Shown here piece by piece: positions 12,548 to 64,000 of a stretch of DNA of 64,000 bases. Position 1 is the first letter of the stretch. The number at the start of each line of letters is the position of its first letter. Made by a program: the position numbers and the translations under genes. The notes beneath the pieces are model-generated. The model did not search any database and had not been told where the DNA came from. It saw only the letters and a list, made by a program, of their open reading frames with translations. Location: positions 2,671,001-2,735,000 of the forward strand of contig CM073321.1 of assembly GCA_037043015.1 (NCBI GenBank). The letters run 5' to 3'. The stretch is from Bryum argenteum. Lineage: Eukaryota; Streptophyta; Bryopsida; Bryales; Bryaceae.

Positions 12548-12580
12548 TCGACACCCGACCAATCGACACTCGACCAGTCG

Positions 12581-13876
12581 TGTCGCAACCCTTGCTAGCT
12601 CACCTTAGCTTACACCAACTTTTTCCCAACTCTAGCAAGTGTCACGAGCGCTAACTCTGCACATCCCCCACATGCACAAAGTTAGCTCTCCATACCAACC
12701 ACCGAGCTCACCGCTTGGTTATCAATCCCTCTTACTCATGCAACCGGGACTCAACCCCTTCGTAGGTAGCCAATGGTTAGGTGCGGACTTCCACTTATGG
12801 CCAAGGCCCAACTTGGTGGCACTCCCATACCACGCGGCCTAACCGCACTTGGTGGTGTCTCCTCACCACCGCCCATGACCACCATGGTGACCCCAAGGCC
12901 ACCAAGTAATCACAACGCCGGCGGTGAGACACCACCCCACATCGGTAGCACTCATGGTCCTCAATTTGCCTATATGAGTCCCCGTGGTGAAGCCCCAACA
13001 CTAGCTCCCCCACCGGGACTCACCTTGTCCTTATAAGCCACCGTGGTGAAGCCCCAACACTAGCTCCACCCACCGTGCCTCATTTTGCACTTTGAGTCCC
13101 CATGGTGGAGCCCCAACACTAGCTCCACCCATTGGGACTCACCTTGGCTTGGGAGTCCCCATGGTGAGGCCCCAACACTAGCCACACCACTCGGGACTCC
13201 CACCTTGGTCACCACCAAGGCACCATGGGAGTGGGGAGGGAGACCAGCCCTCCCCATAGTATACTCTGTGGGATTCGGCAGCCCCCTGGTCCTAGGTGAA
13301 GGGCTGGACCCTCACACCTCTTAGTTTTGGAAGACCACCCAATCTCCCAATGCCTTAGCCGCTGGAAGGCCCCGGGAGACTTCCCGAACCTTCCAGGGCT
13401 CGTATCTACCTCGTCCCGCATCCAAACGCGACGAGCGACCACTCTATCGACATCTACTCGTCAAGTAGATGCCGATAGACACCTTACTTGCCTCATTCCG
13501 ACAAGTATTGAGGGAGTTATGCCCCTCTGAAGATTCGGGAGTCCCGGGCCAGCTTCCCAGTCCAGCACTGTCCCTGGACAGCACTCCCTTTAGTCCCACA
13601 ATCTTCCAACTCCCATAACTTTTAGCTCACACCTCCAACTGAGGTGCTCCTTAGCATCCCGGAATCGTGGCAACATGAGCTTCCATAATCTCATGTCCAT
13701 TCCGTCGTGGCTCCTAGTCTCCGTGGGTGAGAGGCGTCTCCAACGCCCGGGGTCCTCTCCCACACTAGGCCCACTTAGGTTCCCTTCACCTTGGCACCCC
13801 AAGGCCCGGGCGTCACTCCGGTGTCCCCCTTGGGCCCTTGGTGTTGCGGGCACTCCTCAAGGAGAGGTGCGCGACA
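12581..13876 (-). repeat. Family-2 chromovirus LTR
   Basis: 1296-bp LTR, minus orientation, matching the LTRs of the complete element at 40800-48856 from TGTCGC to GCGACA. The flanks do not show a matching 5-bp duplication (AGTCG left, ATTTT right), and different elements lie on each side. It is therefore probably a rearranged rather than a clean solo LTR. It carries the ~70-bp tandem units and the hairpin described for this family. Confidence 0.85.
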
Positions 13877-19941: not shown

Positions 19942-22243
19942 ATGGCTGCTCAAGATGTTCAAATGCTTGGTGATTACTCCTGTGATGAGGATGTTGTGGT
20001 GCAACCGGAGGAGCTGGAAAACGTTCCAAACTGTGAAGGTATTCCTTGACGTCTTTGGGCTACTAAGTTCGTTACCCTTTACGGTGACGACGGTCGGCCT
20101 ATAGCGGAGGGCCTATGTCACTGCATCAATTACGATCTCGTTCTAGGTAGAAACGGTCCACTTCGGCACTCCCGAGTCGGAGTTCAGATCTCAAAGACCC
20201 TTGATGCCACAGTGGTGCCAGATGAGTGGAGATACTTAGTCCGGGCCTGGCCGTTCGATAAAGTCTTCTATAATGGGGCTAGTCTCAGAGACCATGAGAT
20301 AAGACACAATCATGACTCTCGTATTGCACTTCTTACGAGACCTTAGTCATATCGTAGCGGACGTTACAACAATACAGCTCGGAACCCGCCTCGTGAAACA
20401 TCCGTCAAATCTAAAGGATTATTAACTCAAGAGTCTATCAATTCTATCTCAAGCAAAGTTTGCTCCAAAAAGAACTGCGTTTAGCCCTTCCCGAGGGAGA
20501 AAATCCGATGTTTCTGAGAGCGGATGTATAGTGGAACGACGTACCAATTCAGGTTTCACATGAAGCTTGACGTTCACAGGCAGGTTCATCGGAATGCTGA
20601 CGGGAAGAGGGTGGTCACGGTTGAGGGAGTCGATGTTTGCTTGCCTGCATGGAGACATATTGCTGGAGTGTCCGAAGCAACCTTCCATTGGTTTCAGACG
20701 CACGTTGCCAATGGCTTCATGGCGCATCCCCATGGAAATTCGTCTTTGCTTAAACCGCGTAAGCACACGTCACAGGCAACTGCAACTCTGCGTTGCATCC
20801 TAGAGAACTCTGCGGATCACATGCCCCACCGAACGATGACATTGAAATCTGGACTGAAGGTTGTATCGATGATTCTTCCCGCTACGTGTAAATGGAAGAG
20901 TGCCATCCCGGAGATCAAGGCCGCAAATGAAGGCTTCAGTTTGAAGATGGTCTCGCCATCTTATCTGAGTAGAATTTGGAAGTTACACTTTCGTGAATGT
21001 GATGCGAAGAAACTCGGGGATAACTTCGCTCGGTGCTCCAAATGTGATCGGTTGCACACACTCCGTCGTGGCTCTATTGCTGGGTCGCAACAAGCACTAC
21101 TTTGGGCAAAGAAGCTCGAGGTACACTTGGCTGCAGCCCGTGCTTATCAGGAGTTATATTATGCAAATAGGTATAGGTCAAAAACCTACCCGCATGAGTG
21201 TTTGACCATTATGCATGACAAAATGGATCATGCAAAGACCGCTTCCCCTGTCTTTTCTGACAAGAGTAAGGAGCTCAATGGTCTGATGAAGCTACCAGTA
21301 TCCGTCACAGGAATGATCACTCATGGCCACGGAGATGTACGCTACGCACATTACGGTCTAGATATTTTTGCAGACGATTCAAATTACACGGTGGGCTCTT
21401 TTGCTAAGCTGCTCCGAGATTAAGAGTTGCCACCAAAGTACTCTTCGAGGGAGCTTTTTGTTGGGTCGAGGTCGGCACCTATCTTTGATGCTGTTCTCCA
21501 AGGTGCGGAGACTTGCATATCATCACTCCGTCCAGCACCAACTCTTCTACTTCCAGGGATTCCTCTTCCGCCAAATCTCAATGTTCAGATGGACAATGCA
21601 GCATGTGACAACAAGAATAGATGTGTTCTTTTTTTGGTCTCTCCTTGTTGCAAAGAAGATCTTCCAGGAGGTATACGTCAATTTCATGTTGGTTGGGCAT
21701 ACCCATGATGACATCGATGCAATGTTTGGGAGGTGGAGCATGTTGTTGAGGAAAGACAATTTCCCCACTATTCCGTAACTCATGAAGTCTTTCATGGACG
21801 TCGAATCTATTCCATCCATCCCCCACCCTGTTGAAGAGGTGCCGGATTTTAAAGGATTTATCAATGGGTTTATCAGGGATGGAGGAGAAGCACTTGTTGG
21901 TCATACGAAGGCTCAACAATTCAAGTTTTTTTTGGATTCTACAGGTTGTCCCGTGATGAAGTACAAGGTTTCGTGCACAGCAGAAGATTGGTTGCCAAAT
22001 GATACAATCGGAATTAAGTTGTGGAGAGAGGACTCGGAAGGTCATTGTTTGTGGCCACGTGGTAATCCAACTCCTACGACGCATCGTGCAATGAGGGGTG
22101 TAGAGGACATTGTGAAGGGCATATATGAATTTATCAAGTACTGGGAGGCAATGTCTGATGAAGATAGAACTAGACAGTATAGAAGACGATATGAACATCT
22201 TGTATTCTATTGGCACGCTATGAAGGCAGCATTAGAGGTTCCC
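19942..22243 (+). pseudogene. DUF7869-type transposon-like gene, broken
   Basis: Starts at MAAQDVQMLGDYSCDEDVVV (19942) and continues to the LTR that truncates it at 22244, about 765 codons with several in-frame stops and at least one frame change near 21420-21720. Landmarks: KVCSKKNCV (~20470), FRFHMKLDVHRQVHRNADGK (~20560), VCLPAWRHIAGVSEATFHWF (~20635), a CSKCDRLH zinc pair (~21040), then VQMDNAACDNKNR (~21590) and VGHTHDDIDAMFGRWS (~21695). The last two blocks are hallmarks of DUF7869 proteins, a large repeated family in plants and algae that I believe is transposase-like; the spaced acidic residues would suit an RNase H fold, but this is inference. No introns are evident. The palindrome array precedes it. 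The C-terminus is lost to the LTR insertion. Confidence 0.7.
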
Positions 22244-40799: not shown

Positions 40800-42095
40800 T
40801 GTCGCGCACCTCTCCTTGAGGAGTGCCCGCAACACCAAGGGCCCAAGGGGGACACCGGAGTGACGCCCGGGCCTTGGGGTGCCAAGGTGAAGGGAACCTA
40901 AGTGGGCCTAGTGTGGGAGAGGACCCCGGGCGTTGGAGACGCCTCTCACCCACGGAGACTAGGAGCCACGAGGGAATGGACATGAGATTATGGAAGCTCA
41001 TGTTGCCACGATTCCGGGATGCTAAGGAGCACCTCATTTGGAGGTGTGAGCTAAAAGTTATGGGAGTTGGAAGATTGTGGGACTAAAGGGAGTGCTGTCC
41101 AGGGACAGTGCTGGACTGGGAAGCTGGCCCGGGACTCCCGAATCTTCAGAGGGGCATAACTCCCTCAATACTTGTCGGATTGAGGCAAGTAAGGTGTCTA
41201 TCGGCATCTACTTGACGAGTAGATGTCGATAGAGTGGTCGCTCGTCGCGTTTGGATGCGGGACGAGGTAGATACGAGCCCTGGAAGGTTCGGGAAGTCTC
41301 CCGGGGCCTTCCAGCGGCTAAGGCATTGGGAGATTGGGTGGTCTTCCAAAACTAAGAGGTGTGAGGGTCCAGCCCTTCACCTAGGACCAGGGGGCTGCCG
41401 AATCCCACAGAGTATACTATGGGGAGGGCTGGTCTCCTCCCCCACTCCCATGGTGCCTTGGTGGTGACCAAGGTGGGAGTCCCGAGTGGTGTGGCTAGTG
41501 TTGGGGCCTCACCATGGGGACTCCCGAGCCAAGGTGAGTCCCAATGGGTGGAGCTAGTGTTGGGGCTCCACCATGGGGACTCAAAGTGCAAAATGAGGCA
41601 CGGTGGGTGGAGCTAGTGTTGGGGCTTCACCACGGTGGCTCATAAGGACAAGGTGAGTCCCGGTGGGGGAGCTAGTGTTGGGGCTTCACCACGGGGACTC
41701 ATATGGGCAAAATGAGGACCATGAGTGCTACCGATGTGGGGTGGTGTCTCACCGCCGGCGTTGTGATTACTTGGTGGCCTTGGGGTCACCATGGTGGTCA
41801 TGGGCGGTGGTGAGGAGACACCACCAAGTGCGGTTAGGCCGCGTGGTATGGGAGTGCCACCAAGTTGGGCCTTGGACATAAGTGGAAGTCCGCACCTAAC
41901 CATTGGCTACCTACGAAGGGGTTGAGTCCCGGTTGCATGAGTAGGAGGGATTGATAACCAAGCGGTGAGCTTGGTGGTTGGTATGGAGAGCTAACTTTGT
42001 GCATGTGGGGGATGTGCAGAGTTAGCGCTCGTGACACTTGCTAGAGTTGGGAAAAAGTTGGTGTAAGCTAAGGTGAGCTAGCAAGGGTTGCGACA
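40800..42095 (+). repeat. 5' LTR, family 2
   Basis: 1296 bp, TGTCGCGC...TTGCGACA. Contains a 15-bp-arm hairpin at 41198-41232 and, at about 41490-41715, four to five tandem units of ~70 bp each holding GCTAGTGTTGGGGC and CACCATGGGGACTC. Confidence 0.95.
41198..41232 (+). other. Conserved LTR hairpin (family 2 example)
   Basis: 15-bp arms CTATCGGCATCTACT / AGTAGATGTCGATAG with loop TGACG; the single non-Watson-Crick pair is a G-U wobble. The core CATCTACT...AGTAGATG is the same as in family 1. Confidence 0.85.
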
Positions 42096-42097
42096 CT

Positions 42098-47562: not shown

Positions 47563-48856
47563 TGTCGCGCACCTCTCCTTGAGGAGTGCCCGCAACACCA
47601 AGGGCCCAAGGGGGACACCGGAGTGACGCCCGGGCCTTGGGGTGCCAAGGTGAAGGGAACCTAAGTGGGCCTAGTGTGGGAGAGGACCCCGGGCGTTGGA
47701 GACGCCTCTCACCCACGGAGACTAGGAGCCACGAGGGAATGGACATGAGATTATGGAAGCTCATGTTGCCACGATTCCGGGATGCTAAGGAGCACCTCAT
47801 TTGGAGGTGTGAGCTAAAAGTTATGGGAGTTGGAAGATTGTGGGACTAAAGGGAGTGCTGTCCAGGGACAGTGCTGGACTGGGAAGCTGGCCCGGGACTC
47901 CCGAATCTTCAGAGGGGCATAACTCCCTCAATACTTGTCGGATTGAGGCAAGTAAGGTGTCTATCGGCATCTACTTGACGAGTAGATGTCGATAGAGTGG
48001 TCGCTCGTCGCGTTTGGATGCGGGACGAGGTAGATACGAGCCCTGGAAGGTTCGGGAAGTCTCCCGGGCCTTCCAGCGGCTAAGGCATTGGGAGATTGGG
48101 TGGTCTTCCAAAACTAAGAGGTGTGAGGGTCCAGCCCTTCACCTAGGACCAGGGGCTGCCGAATCCCACAGAGTATACTATGGGGAGGGCTGGTCTCCCT
48201 CCCCACTCCCATGGTGCCTTGGTGGTGACCAAGGTGGGAGTCCCGAGTGGTGTGGCTAGTGTTGGGGCCTCACCATGGGGACTCCCGAGCCAAGGTGAGT
48301 CCCAATGGGTGGAGCTAGTGTTGGGGCTCCACCATGGGGACTCAAAGTGCAAAATGAGGCACGGTGGGTGGAGCTAGTGTTGGGGCTTCACCACGGTGGC
48401 TCATAAGGACAAGGTGAGTCCCGGTGGGGGAGCTAGTGTTGGGGCTTCACCACGGGGACTCATATGGGCAAAATGAGGACCATGAGTGCTACCGATGTGG
48501 GGTGGTGTCTCACCGCCGGCGTTGTGATTACTTGGTGGCCTTGGGGTCACCATGGTGGTCATGGGCGGTGGTGAGGAGACACCACCAAGTGCGGTTAGGC
48601 CGCGTGGTATGGGAGTGCCACCAAGTTGGGCCTTGGACATAAGTGGAAGTCCGCACCTAACCATTGGCTACCTACGAAGGGGTTGAGTCCCGGTTGCATG
48701 AGTAGGAGGGATTGATAACCAAGCGGTGAGCTTGGTGGTTGGTATGGAGAGCTAACTTTGTGCATGTGGGGGATGTGCAGAGTTAGCGCTCGTGACACTT
48801 GCTAGAGTTGGGAAAAAGTTGGTGTAAGCTAAGGTGAGCTAGCAAGGGTTGCGACA
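47563..48856 (+). repeat. 3' LTR, family 2
   Basis: 1294 bp, near-identical to the 5' LTR; the visible differences are mostly run-length changes. Followed directly by the target duplication CACAT. Confidence 0.95.
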
Positions 48857-50035
48857 CACATGGTACCCAAGCAGATAATGCCTGAATTTCTTGCAAGCAG
48901 ATACTACGGCCAAAGCTTCACGCTCTGTAGTAGTATACATACGCTCGGCCGGACTCATCTGCAGGCTTGCATAGTAGATGGGATACTCCTTTTTCTCGTC
49001 GCCGGCCTGCCATAGGATTGCCCCTACACACCAGCCGGATGCATCCAGCGTGACATGGAATGGTTTGTCCCAGTCCGGAGTTGAGAGGACGGGTGCTGAA
49101 GTGAGCTTGAGCTTGAGTTTTTCGAAGGCGTCCTGCCGGACGTCCGTCCAGGTGAACTCCGTCTCCTTTTTCAGCAGCTCCGTGAGAGGTGTTGCCAGTT
49201 GCGCGTAGCTATGGATGAAACGCCTGTAGTACCCCACGCATCCTAGGAATCCACGTACTTCCTTCACGTTTGTAGGTGCCACCAGTGCAAGTATTGCCCT
49301 GACTTTGTCAATGTCCACTTGGATTCCGTCCTGGCTGACCACATGTCCAAGCAACAGGCCGGATAGCATTCCGAAGAAACACTTACCCGGATGGAGCTTC
49401 AGCCCTGTTTCTCTGCATCTCTGGAACGTCCTCCTCAGGTAGCTGAGGTGATCCGTCCTTGAGCTGAAGACGGCAAAGTCGTCTATGAACACCTCTAGGA
49501 AGTGTCGAAGAAAGTCTCTGAAGATGTCCATCATGAGGCGCTGAAACGTCCCTGGTGCATTGCATAACCCAAATGGCATGCGATTGAATGCAAACGTCCC
49601 CCACTCCATTGTGAACGTTGTTTTCAGCTGATCCTCCTTCCTGATTACGACCTGGTTGTACCCTGAGAATCCGTCCAGGAAGCTGTAGTATTCCCGTCCT
49701 GCTACATGATCTAAGATGATGTCCGTGAACGGGATCGGGAAGTGGTCCTTCTTAGTTGCTGCGTTTAACTTGCGGAAGTCCTGGCACACCCGGATTTTGA
49801 CCTTCCCGTCCGCTCCGACCTTCTTCGGCACCACTACAATTGGTGACACCCACTCCGAGTTGTCCACCGGATAAATGAATCCGGCCTCGAGGAGTTTATC
49901 AATTTCGTCCTTCACCATGAGTGAGTATTTCGGATTCAGCCGGTATTGCCTCTGCCTCACCGGAGTGGCTCCGTCCTCGAGGTCTATTCGATGCTCCCCC
50001 AACCAGGCGGGAATGCCCCTGAGGTCGGATGGCAC
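48857..50035 (-). CDS. Reverse transcriptase / RNase H segment, Tat/Athila-like
   Basis: About 390 residues, open on the minus strand from MPSDLRGIPAWLGEHRIDL to the insertion point. RT blocks: [108 protein letters not shown]; then the connection domain (EFTWTDVRQDAFEKLKLKL) and RNase H start (VTLDASGWCVGAILWQ, TTEREALAVVSACKKFRHYL). FIDDF at the catalytic site marks the Athila-like side of plant Ty3. Element protein, cut by the nested chromovirus. Confidence 0.85.
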
Positions 50036-56716: not shown

Positions 56717-59440
56717 AGTGCATTGTGGGGGTCGCGCCCTGGTGAAACACAATGCTGCACCAATGGGGATGGCAACCCAAGAGTTGGTGTGACCGACTAC
56801 AAGTATAGTCGATGAGGGCATCGACTCCATTAGGTGGGGGTGAGTGTCGCGCACCTCTCCTTGAGGAGTGCCCGCAACACCAAGGGCCCAAGGGGGACAC
56901 CGGAGTGACGCCCGGGCCTTGGGGTGCCAAGGTGAAGGGAACCTAAGTGGGCCTAGTGTGGGAGAGGACCCCGGGCGTTGGAGACGCCTCTCACCCACGG
57001 AGACTAGGAGCCACGAGGGAATGGACATGAGATTATGGAAGCTCATGTTGCCACGATTCCGGGATGCTAAGGAGCACTGTGAGAGCATGTTATTGCTCTC
57101 TTTTGATGTTATTGTTTATTTGTTACTTTTATGAATGAATTGTTAATTAGCAAATGTCATTTTGAAGTAGATTGGTGAAATTAAGATAATTAAGTTTTGA
57201 ATACAATATGCATGTTTGAGGATGGTTGTTGTAAGGCCTTGGATAGGATGTTTGGCATTTATTTAAGCTTTAGATTAGATTTAGTGTGGAAGGGCTAGAG
57301 GAGGAATGAATCCCCCTAGTGGATCCATAGTTTGATGGGGAAGGACTAGAGGAGGAATGAATCCCCCTAGTGGATCCTTAATTAGAAATAGGGTTAGTTG
57401 CTTGATTAAGAGTTAGATGTTTTACCATTGGCCTTGCACAATTAACCTCGGGTGTTCATATTTGTGTTTGAGACTTGATTGTTTTGGTCTTGTCCAATTG
57501 ACTTTGTGGTGGCAATTGTGAGTTACATTCGTTTGTAGGGGTTCTTCAAGGTGGAGGGCCATGGAGGATGGAGCGCCATGGAGGATGGAGCGTCATTCAT
57601 CCATGGAGGCCTTAGATTAGGGCCTTAGGGTTAGGGTGAGCCGCCTCTTTGGCGGCTCCTCCATTTGTACTTAAGAGCTTGTTTTCAAGCTATAATCAAT
57701 CAATCAATCCATTCCCCTCTTGTTCATTGATTCATGTTGGTGTTCTCCCTCTCCCTCTTCTAATGCTTAGTTAGTGAAGAGAAGGAAGGCCATGGGCCTC
57801 CTTCTCTCTCTTCTTGCTCCCCTCTTTCCTTGTTTTTGCTCTTCCTTGTAGATTGTTGTCATTTGCTCATCTCCTTGGAAGTGCCTCTCAGTCAAATAGC
57901 CATCAGTCCCTCGGTTTTAGTCCAAATCGATTGAGATTTGGGATGCTGGTAGATCTCCTCAGTAGCTTTCTTTTGGTATATGGCTCGTCCAATTCCGATT
58001 TGTAGGGAGGGAGAAATCACCTCCCAAAGTCAGTAGTGTTGAAGGTGTTCTCGGCCGGATGGTATAAAAACAAGGCCCAGTCAAATGGCAATCAGTCCTA
58101 GGTTTTTTGTCCTATGCTTTTGAGATTTTCAGGGTAGATGCAAAATTAAGTTGGCTTTCTAAAAAGCTAATGCACGCCCAATTCCGAGCTAAGATGGAGA
58201 AATGGCGGCCTAGAATCTGAAGGGTACTTAAAAATGCATCCGGCCGGTGGTTTCTTCTTGTTCTTTCCCTTGTTCTTCATCCTCTCCTTGTTTCCCTTCT
58301 TCCCTTCTTCATTTCTCTTGTGATCTTGATCCTTGTGACCAATTGCCACCCCAAAGTGGTTTTTTGGCTCACAAGCACCTCAGTTGGAGGTGTGAGCTAA
58401 AAGTTATGGGAGTTGGAAGATTGTGGGACTAAAGGGAGTGCTGTCCAGGGACAGTGCTGGACTGGGAAGCTGGCCCGGGACTCCCGAATCTTCAGAGGGG
58501 CATAACTCCCTCAATACTTGTCGGAATGAGGCAAGTAAGGTGTCTATCGGCATCTACTTGACGAGTAGATGTCGATAGAGTGGTCGCTCGTCGCGTTTGG
58601 ATGCGGGACGAGGTAGATACGAGCCCTGGAAGGTTCGGGAAGTCTCCCGGGGCCTTCCAGCGGCTAAGGCATTGGGAGATTGGGTGGTCTTCCAAAACTA
58701 AGAGGTGTGAGGGTCCAGCCCTTCACCTAGGACCAGGGGGCTGCCGAATCCCACAGAGTATACTATGGGAGGGCTGGTCTCCTCCCCCACTCCCATGGTG
58801 CCTTGGTGGTGACCAAGGTGGGAGTCCCGAGTGGTGTGGCTAGTGTTGGGGCCTCACCATGGGGACTCCCAAGCCAAGGTGAGTCCCAATGGGTGGAGCT
58901 AGTGTTGGGGCTCCACCATGGGGACTCAAAGTGCAAAATGAGGCACGGTGGGTGGAGCTAGTGTTGGGGCTTCACCACGGTGGCTTATAAGGACAAGGTG
59001 AGTCCCGGTGGGGGAGCTAGTGTTGGGGCTTCACCACGGGGACTCATATAGGCAAAATGAGGACCATGAGTGCTACCGATGTGGGGTGGTGTCTCACCGC
59101 CGGCGTTGTGATTACTTGGTGGCCTTGGGGTCACCATGGTGGTCATGGGCGGTGGTGAGGAGACACCACCAAGTGCGGTTAGGCCGCGTGGTATGGGAGT
59201 GCCACCAAGTTGGGCCTTGGACATAAGTGGAAGTCCGCACCTAACCATTGGCTACCTACGAAGGGGTTGAATCCCGGTTGCATGGGTAGGAGGGATTGAT
59301 AACCAAGCGGTGAGCTTGGTGGTTGGTATGGGGAGCTAACTTTGTGCATGTGGGGGATGTGCAGAGTTAGCGCTCGTGACACTTGCTAGAGTTGGGTAAG
59401 AGTTGGTATAAGCCAAGGTGAGCTAGCAAGGGTTGCGACA
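56717..59440 (+). mobile_element. Family-2 3' end with nested solo LTR
   Basis: Last ~128 bp of the family-2 interior (56717-56844), matching the 3' spacer of the complete element, then its 3' LTR (56845-59440) interrupted by a TRIM-family solo LTR. The 5' part is missing. On its right it abuts intron-bearing genes without a recognisable partner LTR. Confidence 0.9.
57078..58373 (+). repeat. Solo LTR of the TRIM-like family
   Basis: 1296 bp, TGTGAG...CTCACA, flanked by the 5-bp duplication AGCAC (57073-57077 and 58374-58378). It differs from the pair at 8594-11335 by several base substitutions, so it is an older insertion than that element. Formed by recombination between the two LTRs of an element once inserted here. 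Confidence 0.95.
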
Positions 59441-59458
59441 CTGGATATTCATCCCGTT

Positions 59459-61473
59459 ATGAATTCCAGCGGCGCTCGAGTCAAGATCATCAACGACTCT
59501 CTCATCCGTTGGTGGGATGTGAAGTCTGTTGGAGACCCTTTTCCTCAAGAGTACGACAAAGCGAAATTGTTCCTAATTGAGGTACATCTTCACTCATGTT
59601 CATTTCAGAGAAGTGTATCTCGATTGAGTTTTGACATTTGCTTGTTCCATTTCCACCACAGGTTTCTGCAGGTTGCCGTCTATATTTTGAAGGTATTCTC
59701 GAAGTTGGACGTGCAGGCGTCGATTTAATGCTAGCCGACTATCCAGATGGAATACGAGTTCCAGGAGTCTCCGATCCCGAGCACCAGATTCCTCGCTGGA
59801 GTTCTCTTCAACCAAACTTTTTGAAGACAATTGCTGAATTTGCCTTCGAGTACGTGCATGACGACGGGGCAATAGTGATCTTCTATCCAGATTCTTATGT
59901 CGTGAGAAAGAAGATAGAGACATTTACGGCAAATTTCAACCTAAAGATTGCGCTAGAGTGGAAAGTTCTTAACTCTCTTCCGCTGTGCAGCCCGTCGGAT
60001 CCAACACGTTTGGTAAGATAAGAGCTTACTTGTGTTTTCGTGTGTCTTGTTAGGCGGATACTTAAGTTGTTAATAACTGATGATAATGCTAGGCAATGCC
60101 TTTGCTTCTCTATCTGTAAATGTAATCGTGTCTGGGAAATCGTCAATCCTGGGCTGTTTCGCTATGTTGCCTCGAACTCAGGGTGCCGTTGGACCGTTGA
60201 CCCATGCTGCTGCCTGCATACCCTGCTCTTGTTCCGCCGGACCCCTGCCGGTGCCGGCTTACCCCAGTTCGTATCGGCGCTCCCCCAGTGGTGCCGGCAG
60301 ACCTCTGGAAACGGCTGTCTTGCCTAAGAGCCTTGCTGGTTTCGGCGGGTGCCTGTTGGTGCCGGCAGAAGCCTGCTGGTGCCGGCAGATGCCTTGCTGG
60401 TGCCGGCGGATGCCTGCGTGGTGCCGGCGGATGCCAGCTGGTGCCGGCAGATGCCTTGCTGGTGCCGGCGGATGCCTGCGTGGTGCCGGCAGATGTCTGA
60501 GTGGTGCCTTGGTGTCCGCGGTCTTATTGACCCCTGCTGGTACCACGACCTGTTGGTGCCGGCAGACCTGCTGAGGCCTGCATAGCATCGTGTTATTTTT
60601 CTAAACTTGTATTTTTTCGTGCAGACATACATCTCCAAGGCCATCGTTATGGTGAGGGCCCTTCCGCCTAGTGCTCGTCGACAGCCAACTCCCCTCATTG
60701 TTAAGCTCAACCCATTTACACCCGGTGTTGACCTCAATAAGGAGGACATGTTATTCAACGCAATCGACGATCAGGGTCTTCTTCAAAAGACCTCAGATGG
60801 GAAACCATGGAGGGGTCCAAAGCAGCGCACGGAGGTGTTTTTCAAACCACTCATATATGGGATGTGTCCGGAGAGAGGACTCGTCCTTGACTTTGGAGCA
60901 GCAACAGGTTGGTTCTCATTCCATTGACATCATCCTTTACTCTCAACAACTACATGACTGACTGTATTAATTTCTTAACTGCAGGCCCATCCGTTCAAGC
61001 AGCGCTCTCCCTCAACCGCAACAATTTGGCACTTGAGGGCGACCGTGAGATTTTCAATGAGGTGCTTCTGCCACTTACAATTCCAAAGACAGACCATCCT
61101 CCTCGAGCACACCAAATAGTCCCAAACCGGAGGGCCTTCGAGCGACGAGTCACCAATCAAGCCGCACACAATGAGATGGATTCTGTGAGTCGCACTCCGT
61201 TGTCTTGAAATTCCATTCATTTTAATATTTTGATAATATATTCTAATCATGTTATGTGGTTGCTTGTGCAGTTTAGTGAGTGTATTTGACACACTCTCCA
61301 AGCTTCAAATTAGCCCTCCGTTATCGTTTACACTTCCCTCATATGCGGAAGGCTTAGCGGAAGCTTATAGTACTGTGTTATCAGACTCTTCTCCTGATAT
61401 TGCTACGATTCCTAGATATCATCCGGGAGTGAAGCGCTATTTAGACTTGAGTGCATCAGAATCTGACTCCTGA
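59459..61473 (+). CDS. Beta-class DNA methyltransferase-like protein, intron-bearing
   Basis: Exons inferred from GT-AG sites that keep phase: 59459-59581, 59662-60012, 60625-60907, 60985-61184 and a last exon from 61272. The first four give about 319 residues. Residues ~61-72 VDLMLADYPDGI sit where motif IV (DPPY) of N6-adenine/N4-cytosine methyltransferases lies; ~95-140 (FAFEYVHDDGAIVIFYPDSYVVRKKI ... LKIALEWKV) fit the following strands and helices; ~244-272 (LVLDFGAATGPSVQAALSLNRNNLALEGD) fit the SAM-binding motif I and the acidic end of the next strand. Catalytic half first and SAM half second is the beta-class order. The motif reads DYPD, not DPPY, so activity is doubtful. In the phase carried into the last exon a stop comes after five codons, while a neighbouring frame stays open to 61473: an early end, another acceptor, or a break. 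The 5' side may be cut by the LTR at 59440. It could be a host gene or a mobile-element gene. Confidence 0.6.
60345..60570. repeat. GC-rich minisatellite inside an intron
   Basis: Units near GGTGCCGGCRGATGCC with spacers such as TTGCTGGTGCC and TGCGTGGTGCC, repeated roughly eight to ten times within the inferred second intron (60013-60624). Long open frames here on both strands are by-products of the repeat. Confidence 0.85.
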
Positions 61474-62110
61474 GCACATTTTGTTTTTGATATTTTGATT
61501 ATTATATATTTATCTTATATATATTTTTTCTCTGGTATTCATGCTTCAATTATACTTCTGAACTCACTCTTTCCTGTGACAGCCTACCACCGTTGCGACA
61601 AAGTTCAAAATTGTCCATATCTAGGAGAAAAGCACTACACAATCAAGTTCATATCCATGCACTGGATGTGATAAATCAAATTATTTTGGCACTTGCATTA
61701 GATGCAGCTTCTGATGTAATTTAGAAAATTAGTAGGCGCAGGCATGGTTTCGAACTCAAATTTTTACTATGTAATGAAACCTTCAGTGCAAAAACAATAT
61801 GGTAGTCCTCACTTACTAGTTCGAAAGCCAAACACGTAGCCTTGATTCGTAATAGTGTTTTGATGGCACTCGCCATGTCGTTAGTCCTAGTGCTTCCAAT
61901 GTTCCATTCCTCATATCTTTCAGCTTGATGCGTAATTGCACGACGAGGCCCGTGTCCTAGGATCGCCAATCACGTCACAAAGTTGCTCAGCAGCCCGCGT
62001 TTGGGTTGTGCAAATACTAACTCAGGTAGTCGCGTAAGCCTGTCGATGCCTCGCTCGAACTTGGGCCACTCAGCGCCCTAAACCATGAACAGTAAACTAC
62101 AATTGAAGTG
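61474..62110. other. Intergenic region between convergent genes
   Basis: AT-rich 3' flank of the methyltransferase-like gene (TATATATTTATC near 61505), then unassigned DNA. A minus-strand frame of 82 codons at 61721-61969 has no recognisable domain and is not supported by anything else. Nothing firm seen. Confidence 0.4.
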
Positions 62111-62575
62111 TTAGTTGTTGAACTCCGCCTCCAGTATGAGCCCTGATATATGCTCTGGGTTGCAAAGGAAGCAAGCCCAGTACATGTCGTCCACCATGTC
62201 TCCTTCAAGAGTGTCGTCACCATAGTTCCGAATGATGCAAGCCGCACACCAGCTTAGTACGCAGCAGCTACACTCGGTGAGGTTTTCTGTTTGTCCACAC
62301 CAAGAGCATGTAGCCACTTCCACCGCCTACACAGATCCAACCTAGTGAGCACCGACTCTGGCAGATTGATTGACCTACAACTTCACACCTTTCATACACA
62401 AAAGTCACTACTTTCTTACATTATTCTGTCTGTGACAGTGGCGCACAATTCGATGCTGCAAAAACGCCACACATTCCACATTCATTATAACATTCAACTC
62501 TGGATGATAATCGACCTCCTCCAAGCTCTCTATAGTCTCTCCGCAAGCAGTGCAAATCAGTGTCTTCTTCGCCAT
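62111..62575 (-). CDS. Small ATRX-type ADD zinc-finger protein
   Basis: Two exons inferred on the minus strand: 62575-62420 (52 codons, donor GTAAGA) and 62326-62111 (acceptor TGTAG), both phase 0, giving 123 residues. The order of ligands matches the ADD domain of ATRX/DNMT3: C8-x2-C11 (ICTACGE), HP at 24-25, C35, C59-x2-C62 (CSWCG), NL then C71 and C74, WC79-x2-C82 IIRNYG, and WAC104-x2-C107 NP. Spacing and the words CI-x-RN-x-G and C-x-x-C-NPE are close to ATRX. ADD domains bind the histone H3 tail with unmethylated K4, in ATRX together with K9me3. The second pair reads N-x-x-C (N32, C35), so one zinc ligand appears replaced or supplied otherwise. The protein is almost only the ADD domain. 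It lies tail to tail with the methyltransferase-like gene. ATGs at 62575 and just upstream are both possible starts. Confidence 0.75.
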
Positions 62576-63184
62576 TAGCATCATCTGCACCTGCGAGCAA
62601 AAATTCCAACGGAAAAGCGAATAAATCCACAATTGCCAATTGTCGAGCGATTCAAAATAATAATTTTGACACTACACATATCGTCTCACCCCATCAGGTG
62701 CCGGCGGATCCTCTCCCGGCGGCAAAGTGATAACGGACTGATTTCACAATAGAGCAAGATTGGCAGCGGTCAAACTCGTGCCACTCACTACACTAAACCC
62801 TAAATCACTCTGCTAACACTTGCCGCGTCCTGCCGTATTAGCCGCCCTACTTATAAATAGTAGAATGCTGACGTCAGCCCTAATTTAGTTACTCCTACAA
62901 ATATTGTTATGAACGTAGTACACCACAGTTATATCAACATAGACCCCATATTTATAAATCCATTTCTTGGAATCTGAATATTTTGTTACCATCGCCCACA
63001 CGGTTATAGGGTTTTTCCACGGATTTGCACACCACATGTTCAACCTTTTTCAAAAATCTAAGATTGATAAAGTGTACTTTACACACTTCTAAGTGTCCAA
63101 TATTTTTTTAAAAATCTGCTCACGACTAATTAAAAGTCTGCTCATCACTCACGGCTCACGGCTCGCACAACTGCAATCTTGGTG
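62576..63184 (-). promoter_or_regulatory. Upstream region of ADD gene
   Basis: About 600 bp, AT-rich, no gene. A TATAAATA-type element at 62851-62860 reads as a TATA box on either strand and lies ~280 bp before the ADD start; GACGTCA follows at 62869. A telobox-like AAACCCTAAA occurs at ~62806. A second TATA-like TTTATAAAT is at ~62949. Confidence 0.4.
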
Positions 63185-64000
63185 TTAAAGACTGTTTTCA
63201 GAGACGTCATCATATAGAGTACTTGAATGCGTCACTATTGACGCAGGTTTAACTCTAGCGCGTCACTTTTGACGTAGTGTAACGCAAGGAATACCCTAGC
63301 ACATAGCACATATATGTAGCCTTTATGCTTTATGCTACTCAATACTTGCAACTTTGTACCAGTGGCTAATTTTCCATCTAATACAGCGAAAGCACTGACC
63401 AGGTTTATGTTGCACTCCATTTGGTGTATGTTTCTGTCAGAGTGTGTTATGTTTGACGTTGCATTTACGTTATCGAATGTGTCATATGACGTCACTTTTA
63501 ACGTTTTCATTTCCGTCATATTGTGTCATGTTGTGTTTCTTTTGACACACGTCTGCCATCGAATTGCGTCGAATGGATGACGTGGCGAACGTCATCCTAC
63601 ATCTTGTCTCTTTACTTGAAACACGCTAAAACACGTGACATTCGTGTTTAAGTGCGTCAACTTTGACACGAGGCCCTGTTTCTTTTCACACATAACTTGA
63701 TAACGTGAATGTCACCCTACGTCTAAAGACACATCCAAAACGCGTTAAAACAAACGACATTTGCGTTTATTAAACAACGTCTAAGGATGTTTTGGAAATC
63801 GCGTTAAAATAGAGGACACAAGTGTTCCTCAACGTCAATGTGGACACTATCTCCTGTTTCTTTTGATACAAACTCCGAACTTCTTTCACATTCTAGGATG
63901 TGGCCACGTGTGACGATCTCAGCCTTCGAAATTTAAATGCCACGTCAGATTTCCGATGCCACATCAGATCAGATTTCATCCATCACAAGGATGAAAAATT
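63185..64000. promoter_or_regulatory. TGACG/CGTCA-saturated region
   Basis: I count about 15 TGACG or CGTCA words in ~820 bp, many in longer forms such as GCGTCACTATTGACGC, TGACGTCA and GCGTCACTTTTGACG. No ORF of note. Shares words including GCGTTAAAACAAAC and CGTCACTATTGAC with 28141-29277. Runs off the window. Probably the terminal or regulatory part of a unit that may include the ADD and methyltransferase-like genes. Confidence 0.6.

Follow-up and report, generated by a model that had tools for sequence, protein, structure and literature searches.

ParB-methyltransferase proteins have been published for algal transposons. In Ectocarpus, such a protein is an accessory protein of a 21.5-kb transposon; the available text of the report gives 4mC/6mA as the prediction of its authors and makes no mention of an ADD partner (PMC12477816). 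Retrotransposon-borne DNMTs and the Dam-like methylases of DIRS elements are known as well; in the accessible part of the source, they are enzymes of retroelements, of the 5mC or Dam type, and have no ADD partner (PMC5890265). According to the available text on Arabidopsis, the targets of the anti-silencing protein VANC have accumulated as tandem repeats within the introns and other noncoding DNA of VANDAL elements—DNA transposons with extra genes—and differ between the subfamilies of these elements (PMC5735166). MULEs have target-site duplications (TSDs) of 8–11 bp and, in most groups, terminal inverted repeats (TIRs); SWIM is frequent in the groups presented in the accessible part of the source (PMC6446971).

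The window, i.e., the whole stretch of 64,000 nucleotides of the moss Bryum argenteum analyzed here, contains a methyltransferase-like gene next to an ADD gene, both almost certainly derived from a DNA transposon. The N4-cytosine methyltransferase of bdelloid rotifers is reportedly fused to a chromodomain. It can be likened to the moss protein, by description only, as a bacterial-type amino-methyltransferase in a eukaryote (PMC8885841, available text). The moss element resembles the retroelements mentioned above in carrying a DNA-methyltransferase-like gene, while it differs from the Ectocarpus transposon, as far as the latter is described in the available text, in its 10-bp TSD, SWIM-like transposase, ADD genes, and altered motif IV. 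A literature search of titles and abstracts found no report of an ADD domain in a transposon. The preliminary description of this locus considered that the module could be unrecorded; this holds for the ADD partners, for which no precedent was found in print, and not for the ParB-methyltransferase part, which has already been reported.

Structure of the Locus

The methyltransferase-like gene (plus strand, exons at about 59442–61473) and the ATRX-type ADD gene (minus strand, 62584–62111) are arranged tail to tail with about 0.64 kb between them, as originally described (Table 1). Their alignment with a 22,566-bp copy, hereafter the C5 copy, spans positions 59441–63182 of the window, the outermost columns being local extension. 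Leftward, the match to other copies extends no further than 59441, the last position of an LTR that interrupts a methyltransferase exon. Thus, the ATG at 59459, formerly regarded as the gene start, is internal and was rejected as a true start. The remaining parts of the element, the upstream ParB-like part among them, were searched for in the window and are absent from it; therefore, the gene pair in the window is a remnant.

The right end is common to 19 of the 30 ADD loci (the window's own counted), with divergence beyond it, and in the other 11 the match to the window ends short of this point. Its consensus across the ADD loci is ...CTGC[A/G]ATC[C/T]TG, with small variants. Positions 63112–63159 are an inverted match to the left end of the C5 copy (83% over 48 bp). 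No partner of the presumed TSD was found within the window. The ADD gene of the window has lost a cysteine (VIMNVEC vs. VIMCVGC or VVMCVVC in most other copies). A tail resembling the last methyltransferase exon of the window was found in the divergent copy L087. Of seven contig ends inspected in the genome, one had TTTAGGG repeats, one was N in the stretch inspected, and five had no such repeats.

Table 1. Coordinates of the element remnant, its genes, and the truncating LTR in the window.
Feature	Position	Strand	Remarks
Right-terminal transposon remnant	59442–63181	+	3.7 kb; 91.6% identity to the C5 copy over 3752 columns
LTR sequence truncating the element	58374–59441	+	98.4–98.8% self matches within the window
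Other copies of the truncating LTR	12580–13648 (−), 41028–42097, 47791–48857		Window self matches
Methyltransferase-like gene, cut exon A	59442–59581	+	Frame runs on upstream in other copies
Exon B, with motif IV equivalent ADYPDG	59662–60012	+	
Exon C, ending in motif I equivalent LDFGAATG	60625–60907	+	Splice sites judged by eye
Exon D (PSVQAALSLNRN...ALEGD)	60985–61184	+	Splice sites judged by eye
Last exon, C-terminal tail ...VKRYLDLSASESDS stop	61276–61473	+	5′ junction approximate
Intronic GGTGCCGGC motif array	60334–60508		Period about 20 bp
ADD1 exon 2, PHD-like half	62114–62326	−	
ADD1 exon 1, GATA-like half	62447–62584	−	One conserved Cys missing; splice site by eye
Right terminal inverted repeat, ending ...CTGCAATCTTG	63112–63181	+	Right-end site at C1:2734161
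Presumed right copy of the target-site duplication (GTGTTAAAGA)	63182–63191		Position by analogy with other copies

Element Ends, Gene Content, and Transposase

Searches with the element ends (21 bases for the left-end pattern, up to one mismatch allowed) revealed 65 left and 76 right sites in the genome, and reversed-pattern controls for both ends gave no sites genome-wide. Each left end was joined to the closest right end no more than 70 kb away; this bounded 42 elements and left 23 of the 65 left ends without a partner. The copy counts that follow are lower bounds, 150 candidates having been scored per protein search. The methyltransferase exon was present in at least 27 of the 42 bounded elements; among these 27, ADD1 was found in at least 24, the ParB-like exon in at least 25, the transposase in at least 23, and a second ADD gene on the other strand in at least 18. 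All five genes occurred together in at least 15 of the 27, with element lengths of 21.0–50.9 kb, nested insertions included. In 10 of the 42, none of the five genes was among the scored matches.

In 20 elements with both flanks available, TSDs were exact over 10 bp in 16 cases, matched at 9 of 10 positions in two, were exact over 9 bp in one, and were absent in one; of 380 mismatched flank pairs used as a control, none reached 9/10 or more. Elements of about 12 kb without a scored match to the five genes had an exact 10-bp TSD in all three cases tested; consequently, these genes are not needed in cis for movement. The TIRs were composed of short repeats. The element ends and TSDs identify the two genes, previously described as non-retroelement genes, as genes of a DNA transposon and not of the host, and the pair is almost certainly the 3′ remnant of a giant element of the cut-and-paste type. 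Retroelement cargo was ruled out by the TIR together with the 10-bp TSD.

The gene order in the C5 copy, with the methyltransferase set as the plus strand, was ADD2 at the left, a third ADD-like exon, the transposase (minus strand), the ParB-like part, the methyltransferase, and ADD1 (minus strand) at the right. The transposase of this copy consisted of two overlapping frames on the minus strand, and its methyltransferase frame was broken in one exon. The C5 copy, the only one read from end to end, was also the only one in which this third exon was observed.

In another copy, the transposase frame was 1222 amino acids long, and the protein collection contained 52 relatives of the transposase. 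Its acidic residues D508 and D574 were conserved, and a CxC...CxH stretch at the C-terminus matched SWIM below the cut-off; Pfam scans gave no match to a MULE domain. Mutator/MULE transposases are of the MULE-type DDE kind and have a SWIM or another zinc finger. TSDs of 10 bp in 18 of the 20 elements (two with one mismatch) and of 9 bp in one are within the range of Mutator/MULE elements. In the Sola1 superfamily, the TSD is 4 bp long, as against 10 bp here.

Co-Occurrence and Selection

Among the 150 scored methyltransferase matches, at least 39 exceeded 180 bits, and ADD1 was located tail to tail with 34 of these 39, the match centres being 1957–6493 bp apart (median 3169 bp). Random placement of the 150 ADD matches against the 39 gave a mean of 0.115 and a maximum of 2 in 1000 trials; for the 58 strong ADD matches against all 150 methyltransferase matches, the value was 0.168. 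Both nulls preserve contigs and ignore the clustering of mobile elements. The recurrence of the pair is not due to chance. In the reverse direction, a methyltransferase was found beside 40 of the 58 ADD1-type matches (above 56 bits). In the weaker, more distant groups of methyltransferase matches among the same 150, ADD1 adjoined only 3 of 8, 3 of 32, and 3 of 71; the pair is thus not obligatory and is a feature of one branch. Other branches have no recognizable ADD1; at L087, for example, no ADD-like frame was seen by eye in the 4 kb downstream.

The initial guess that the pair forms a mobile epigenetic module is thereby partly supported: a writer-like gene and an ADD reader do travel together in a mobile element, as indicated by genome-wide co-occurrence, common ends, and TSDs, and in this genome both kinds of domain match and the co-occurrence of the two genes were found.

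The dN/dS ratios were calculated by the Nei–Gojobori method for chosen pairs of chosen loci, with no ratio given for saturated pairs. Between two ADD1 subfamilies, exon 2 of ADD1 had ratios of 0.12–0.18 in the unsaturated pairs; for the methyltransferase exon, ratios between subfamilies were 0.03–0.10 in unsaturated pairs, with synonymous distances that were in many cases saturated or nearly so. Close pairs had ratios from 0.04 to 0.25, apart from L088/L089 with 0.68. All comparisons of the ParB-like part were saturated at synonymous sites. Both the methyltransferase-like and the ADD genes are under purifying selection.

ADD Genes

ATRX-type ADD domains combine a GATA-like and a PHD-like zinc-binding half and bind the H3 tail (K4me0/K9me3). 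A profile of seven ADD1/2/3 sequences, one row of which fuses exons from two copies, matched the ATRX ADD in the PDB with E = 7e-19 over profile positions 6–110, i.e., over the whole domain, and DNMT3B at E = 0.056 only. Pfam ADD_ATRX was listed for six of the seven members of the profile and was below the cut-off for the first one. The ADD assignment is thus confirmed by the seven-copy profile, while the ADD protein of the window alone is below the Pfam cut-offs. Judged by this comparison, the ATRX-type identity of the predicted domain is firm. The likeness to the ATRX ADD domain (PDB 2lbm, 3ql9) includes the whole domain and the Cys pattern; unlike ATRX, the ADD proteins of the element are small and have no helicase in the frames read. 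The genome contained at least 106 ADD_ATRX matches, five over the cut-off and 101 weaker; none of the five was in or near element ends, vs. 44 of the 101 weaker ones.

Methyltransferase-Like and ParB-Like Parts

The spliced protein of the window reached 15.6 bits with Pfam N6_N4_Mtase (cut-off 26.7), below the threshold that divergent copies of the gene attain. The genome search gave two copies reaching the cut-off (C4:20498341, 26.8 bits, and C7:9878472, 26.7 bits), and in both a ParB-like exon lies about 3 kb upstream, with the strand in common; the exon sequence of one of them, L115, scored 27.6 bits. N6_N4_Mtase matches were obtained for 5 of 13 alignment members, with a best E of 0.00024 and with the first member at 17.9 bits, below the cut-off. 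Both halves matched a bacterial N6A enzyme (PDB 5hfj) collinearly and sub-significantly (E = 0.78). Comparison with M1.HpyAVI-like enzymes by hhalign aligned the second half with E = 0.00098 and a probability of 22%, the controls giving 1.1% and 0.12%.

In beta-class enzymes, motif IV precedes motif I and has the form (D/S/N)PP(Y/F/W). The former order is evident here from the exon order and the collinear match to 5hfj, and by its predicted sequence the methyltransferase is beta-class-like. The canonical motif IV was not found in the copies read, where DYPD, EYPD, DIPE, DLPE, DAPE, and DTPF stand instead; D-Y-P or E-Y-P was present in 29 of the 30 close loci, with E replacing D in the second subfamily. 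Among individual loci, the D that follows is replaced by V in L019, and L020 shows YSDG, closely followed by a stop. The forms of motif I (DFGAATG, VDLTASTG, DWSASTG) are unusual as well. Catalysis is doubtful because D-x-P-x occupies the place of DPPY, and active base methylation by the putative methyltransferase appears rather unlikely.

The ParB-like part gave nothing significant against Pfam and the PDB, DndB appearing at 0.024 in one member; a GNHRL stretch was invariant in thirteen copies, and the name 'ParB-like' is used because of the GNHR-containing motif and the published analogue. Of the 31 strong loci with both parts, most had the centres of the ParB-like and methyltransferase matches 2.1–2.6 kb apart. 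From this near-constant spacing and the published analogue, we infer that both are probably spliced into one protein. With the joined 938-aa query, no relatives were found among the best 7999 candidates of a set of 5.8 billion proteins; a shorter profile retrieved at least 18 proteins of 84–238 amino acids (best 8000 candidates scored), and no match of the ParB-like profile was confirmed in viral contigs.

The GGTGCCGGC Motif

In the 22.6-kb C5 copy, GGTGCCGGC occurred 53 times, with no occurrence in the 7,980 bases set as coding, and was absent from 17.4 kb of flank. The motif was found in 14 of 30 methyltransferase loci (about 3.3 kb each), densely in one subfamily; it was absent from all ten loci L021–L030 and from the divergent L087 and L115. 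Given this restricted presence, it may be a mere minisatellite. Several loci without it were rich in other GC-rich words. By analogy, GGTGCCGGC is a candidate recognition site of the element's protein. The moss element and VANDAL elements are alike as DNA transposons with extra genes and a short noncoding tandem motif (PMC5735166, available text); the likeness is one of arrangement. In a VANC-type system, a protein frees the copies with its motif from silencing.

Proposed Role and Alternatives

Besides the transposase, the element would encode a chromatin module made up of a ParB/Srx-like and beta-class methyltransferase-like protein and two ATRX-type ADD genes. The former protein may recognize the element's own DNA, with GGTGCCGGC as the candidate site, and would mark this DNA or, given the altered motif IV, merely bind it. 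The ADD proteins would bind histone H3 tails on the same element copies, and the module as a whole may shield these copies from host silencing or steer transposition. A giant transposon remnant with a self-directed chromatin module is the best explanation overall, and we lean slightly towards it. Self-directed handling of chromatin is the most likely role; taken by itself, the chromatin or anti-silencing function, suggested by analogy, is a tentative proposal. A more far-reaching version, rather unlikely as it stands, is that of a plant-lineage giant transposon which would place a protein of ParB-like and methyltransferase fold on subfamily-specific noncoding arrays (GGTGCCGGC in that of the window), together with H3-reading ADD proteins. 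Such an element would distinguish its own copies and remove them from host silencing or selectively subject them to it, a VANC-like strategy assembled from bacterial and ATRX-like parts.

If the protein instead actively methylated the element at N4 of cytosine or N6 of adenine, with the ADD proteins reading the adjoining chromatin, the pair would be a true writer–reader module. The beta-class motif order, the collinear if sub-significant match of both halves to the N6A enzyme, the HMM–HMM alignment of the second half, strong purifying selection, and the 4mC/6mA prediction in the available text on Ectocarpus (PMC12477816) argue for this, while D[Y/I/L/A/T]P[D/E/S/F] in place of DPPY in the copies read, with E for D in the second subfamily, and the unusual motif I argue against it and leave it a modest probability. 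The accessory genes could also serve transposition, the ParB-like part and a dead methyltransferase fold assembling the ends or picking targets and the ADD proteins steering insertion by chromatin. They do lie within the TIRs alongside the transposase, and the short repeats in the TIRs are possible binding sites; against this, the exact 10-bp TSDs of the 12-kb elements without scored genes make such a role improbable.

MULEs are prone to acquire fragments of host genes, according to the available text (PMC6446971), which would suit a chance capture of ADD fragments from the host, along with a foreign methylase, that do nothing for the element. The order and orientation fixed over divergent subfamilies and the purifying selection on both genes render this very improbable. 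As to an independent host gene pair, both frames are mostly open in the window. The right end encloses the pair, the LTR cuts it at the left, the ADD copy is missing a conserved cysteine, and throughout the genome the pair accompanies the element; this explanation was ruled out and retains virtually no probability.

For the self-directed chromatin module, the conserved pair is found dozens of times in the genome, there is a candidate cis motif, and the strong ADD_ATRX matches lie outside the elements, so that the handling of host chromatin by the element is directly testable. Transposons with chromatin proteins of their own allow the silencing arms race to be viewed from the parasite's side. 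If the proposed role is true, ATRX-type ADD domains would be at work outside ATRX and DNMT3, and bacterial-type methyltransferase folds would be linked to eukaryotic silencing.

None of the five genes of the transposon (transposase, ParB-like, methyltransferase-like, ADD1, and the second ADD on the other strand) was found among the scored matches in three elements of about 12 kb, the ends of which are those of the gene-bearing transposon; these elements are possibly non-autonomous relatives. The divergent methyltransferase-like locus L115 carried DTPF as motif IV, nearer the canonical form.

Only five ADD_ATRX matches in the genome passed the Pfam cut-off, and none of the five was located in or near an element end (0/5). 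They are probably host ADD genes, and the transposon's ADD may have been derived from this set.

Regarding the surroundings of the remnant, the 301-aa frame probably encodes another transposon protein. Some of the LTR-like copies appeared chimeric. TGACG/CGTCA-type words seemed abundant by eye in the flank outside the transposon (window 63200-64000).

Locations of features in the window and in genome G000 (C, contig)
Feature	Location	Remarks
12-kb element	C2:13189272-13201360	exact 10-bp TSD
12-kb element	C4:16424401-16436768	exact 10-bp TSD
12-kb element	C5:2218700-2231446	exact 10-bp TSD
L115	C4:20498100-20500400	
ADD_ATRX	C3:29599006	above cut-off
ADD_ATRX	C8:14715856	above cut-off
ADD_ATRX	C11:2075109	above cut-off
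ADD_ATRX	C10:10654644	above cut-off
ADD_ATRX	C10:10620093	above cut-off
301-aa frame	window 20518-21423	weak DUF7869 match, 21.2 bits vs cut-off 26
Nested LTR retrotransposons	window 8594-59441	several LTR-like copies, 97-99% identical

Contig C1, where the window is located, is 44.1 Mb long (17% of bases) and, among the matches listed for the genome, held 84/150 ParB-like, 79/150 ADD, 70/150 methyltransferase, and 65/150 transposase matches. It is perhaps a sex chromosome or another poorly recombining chromosome.
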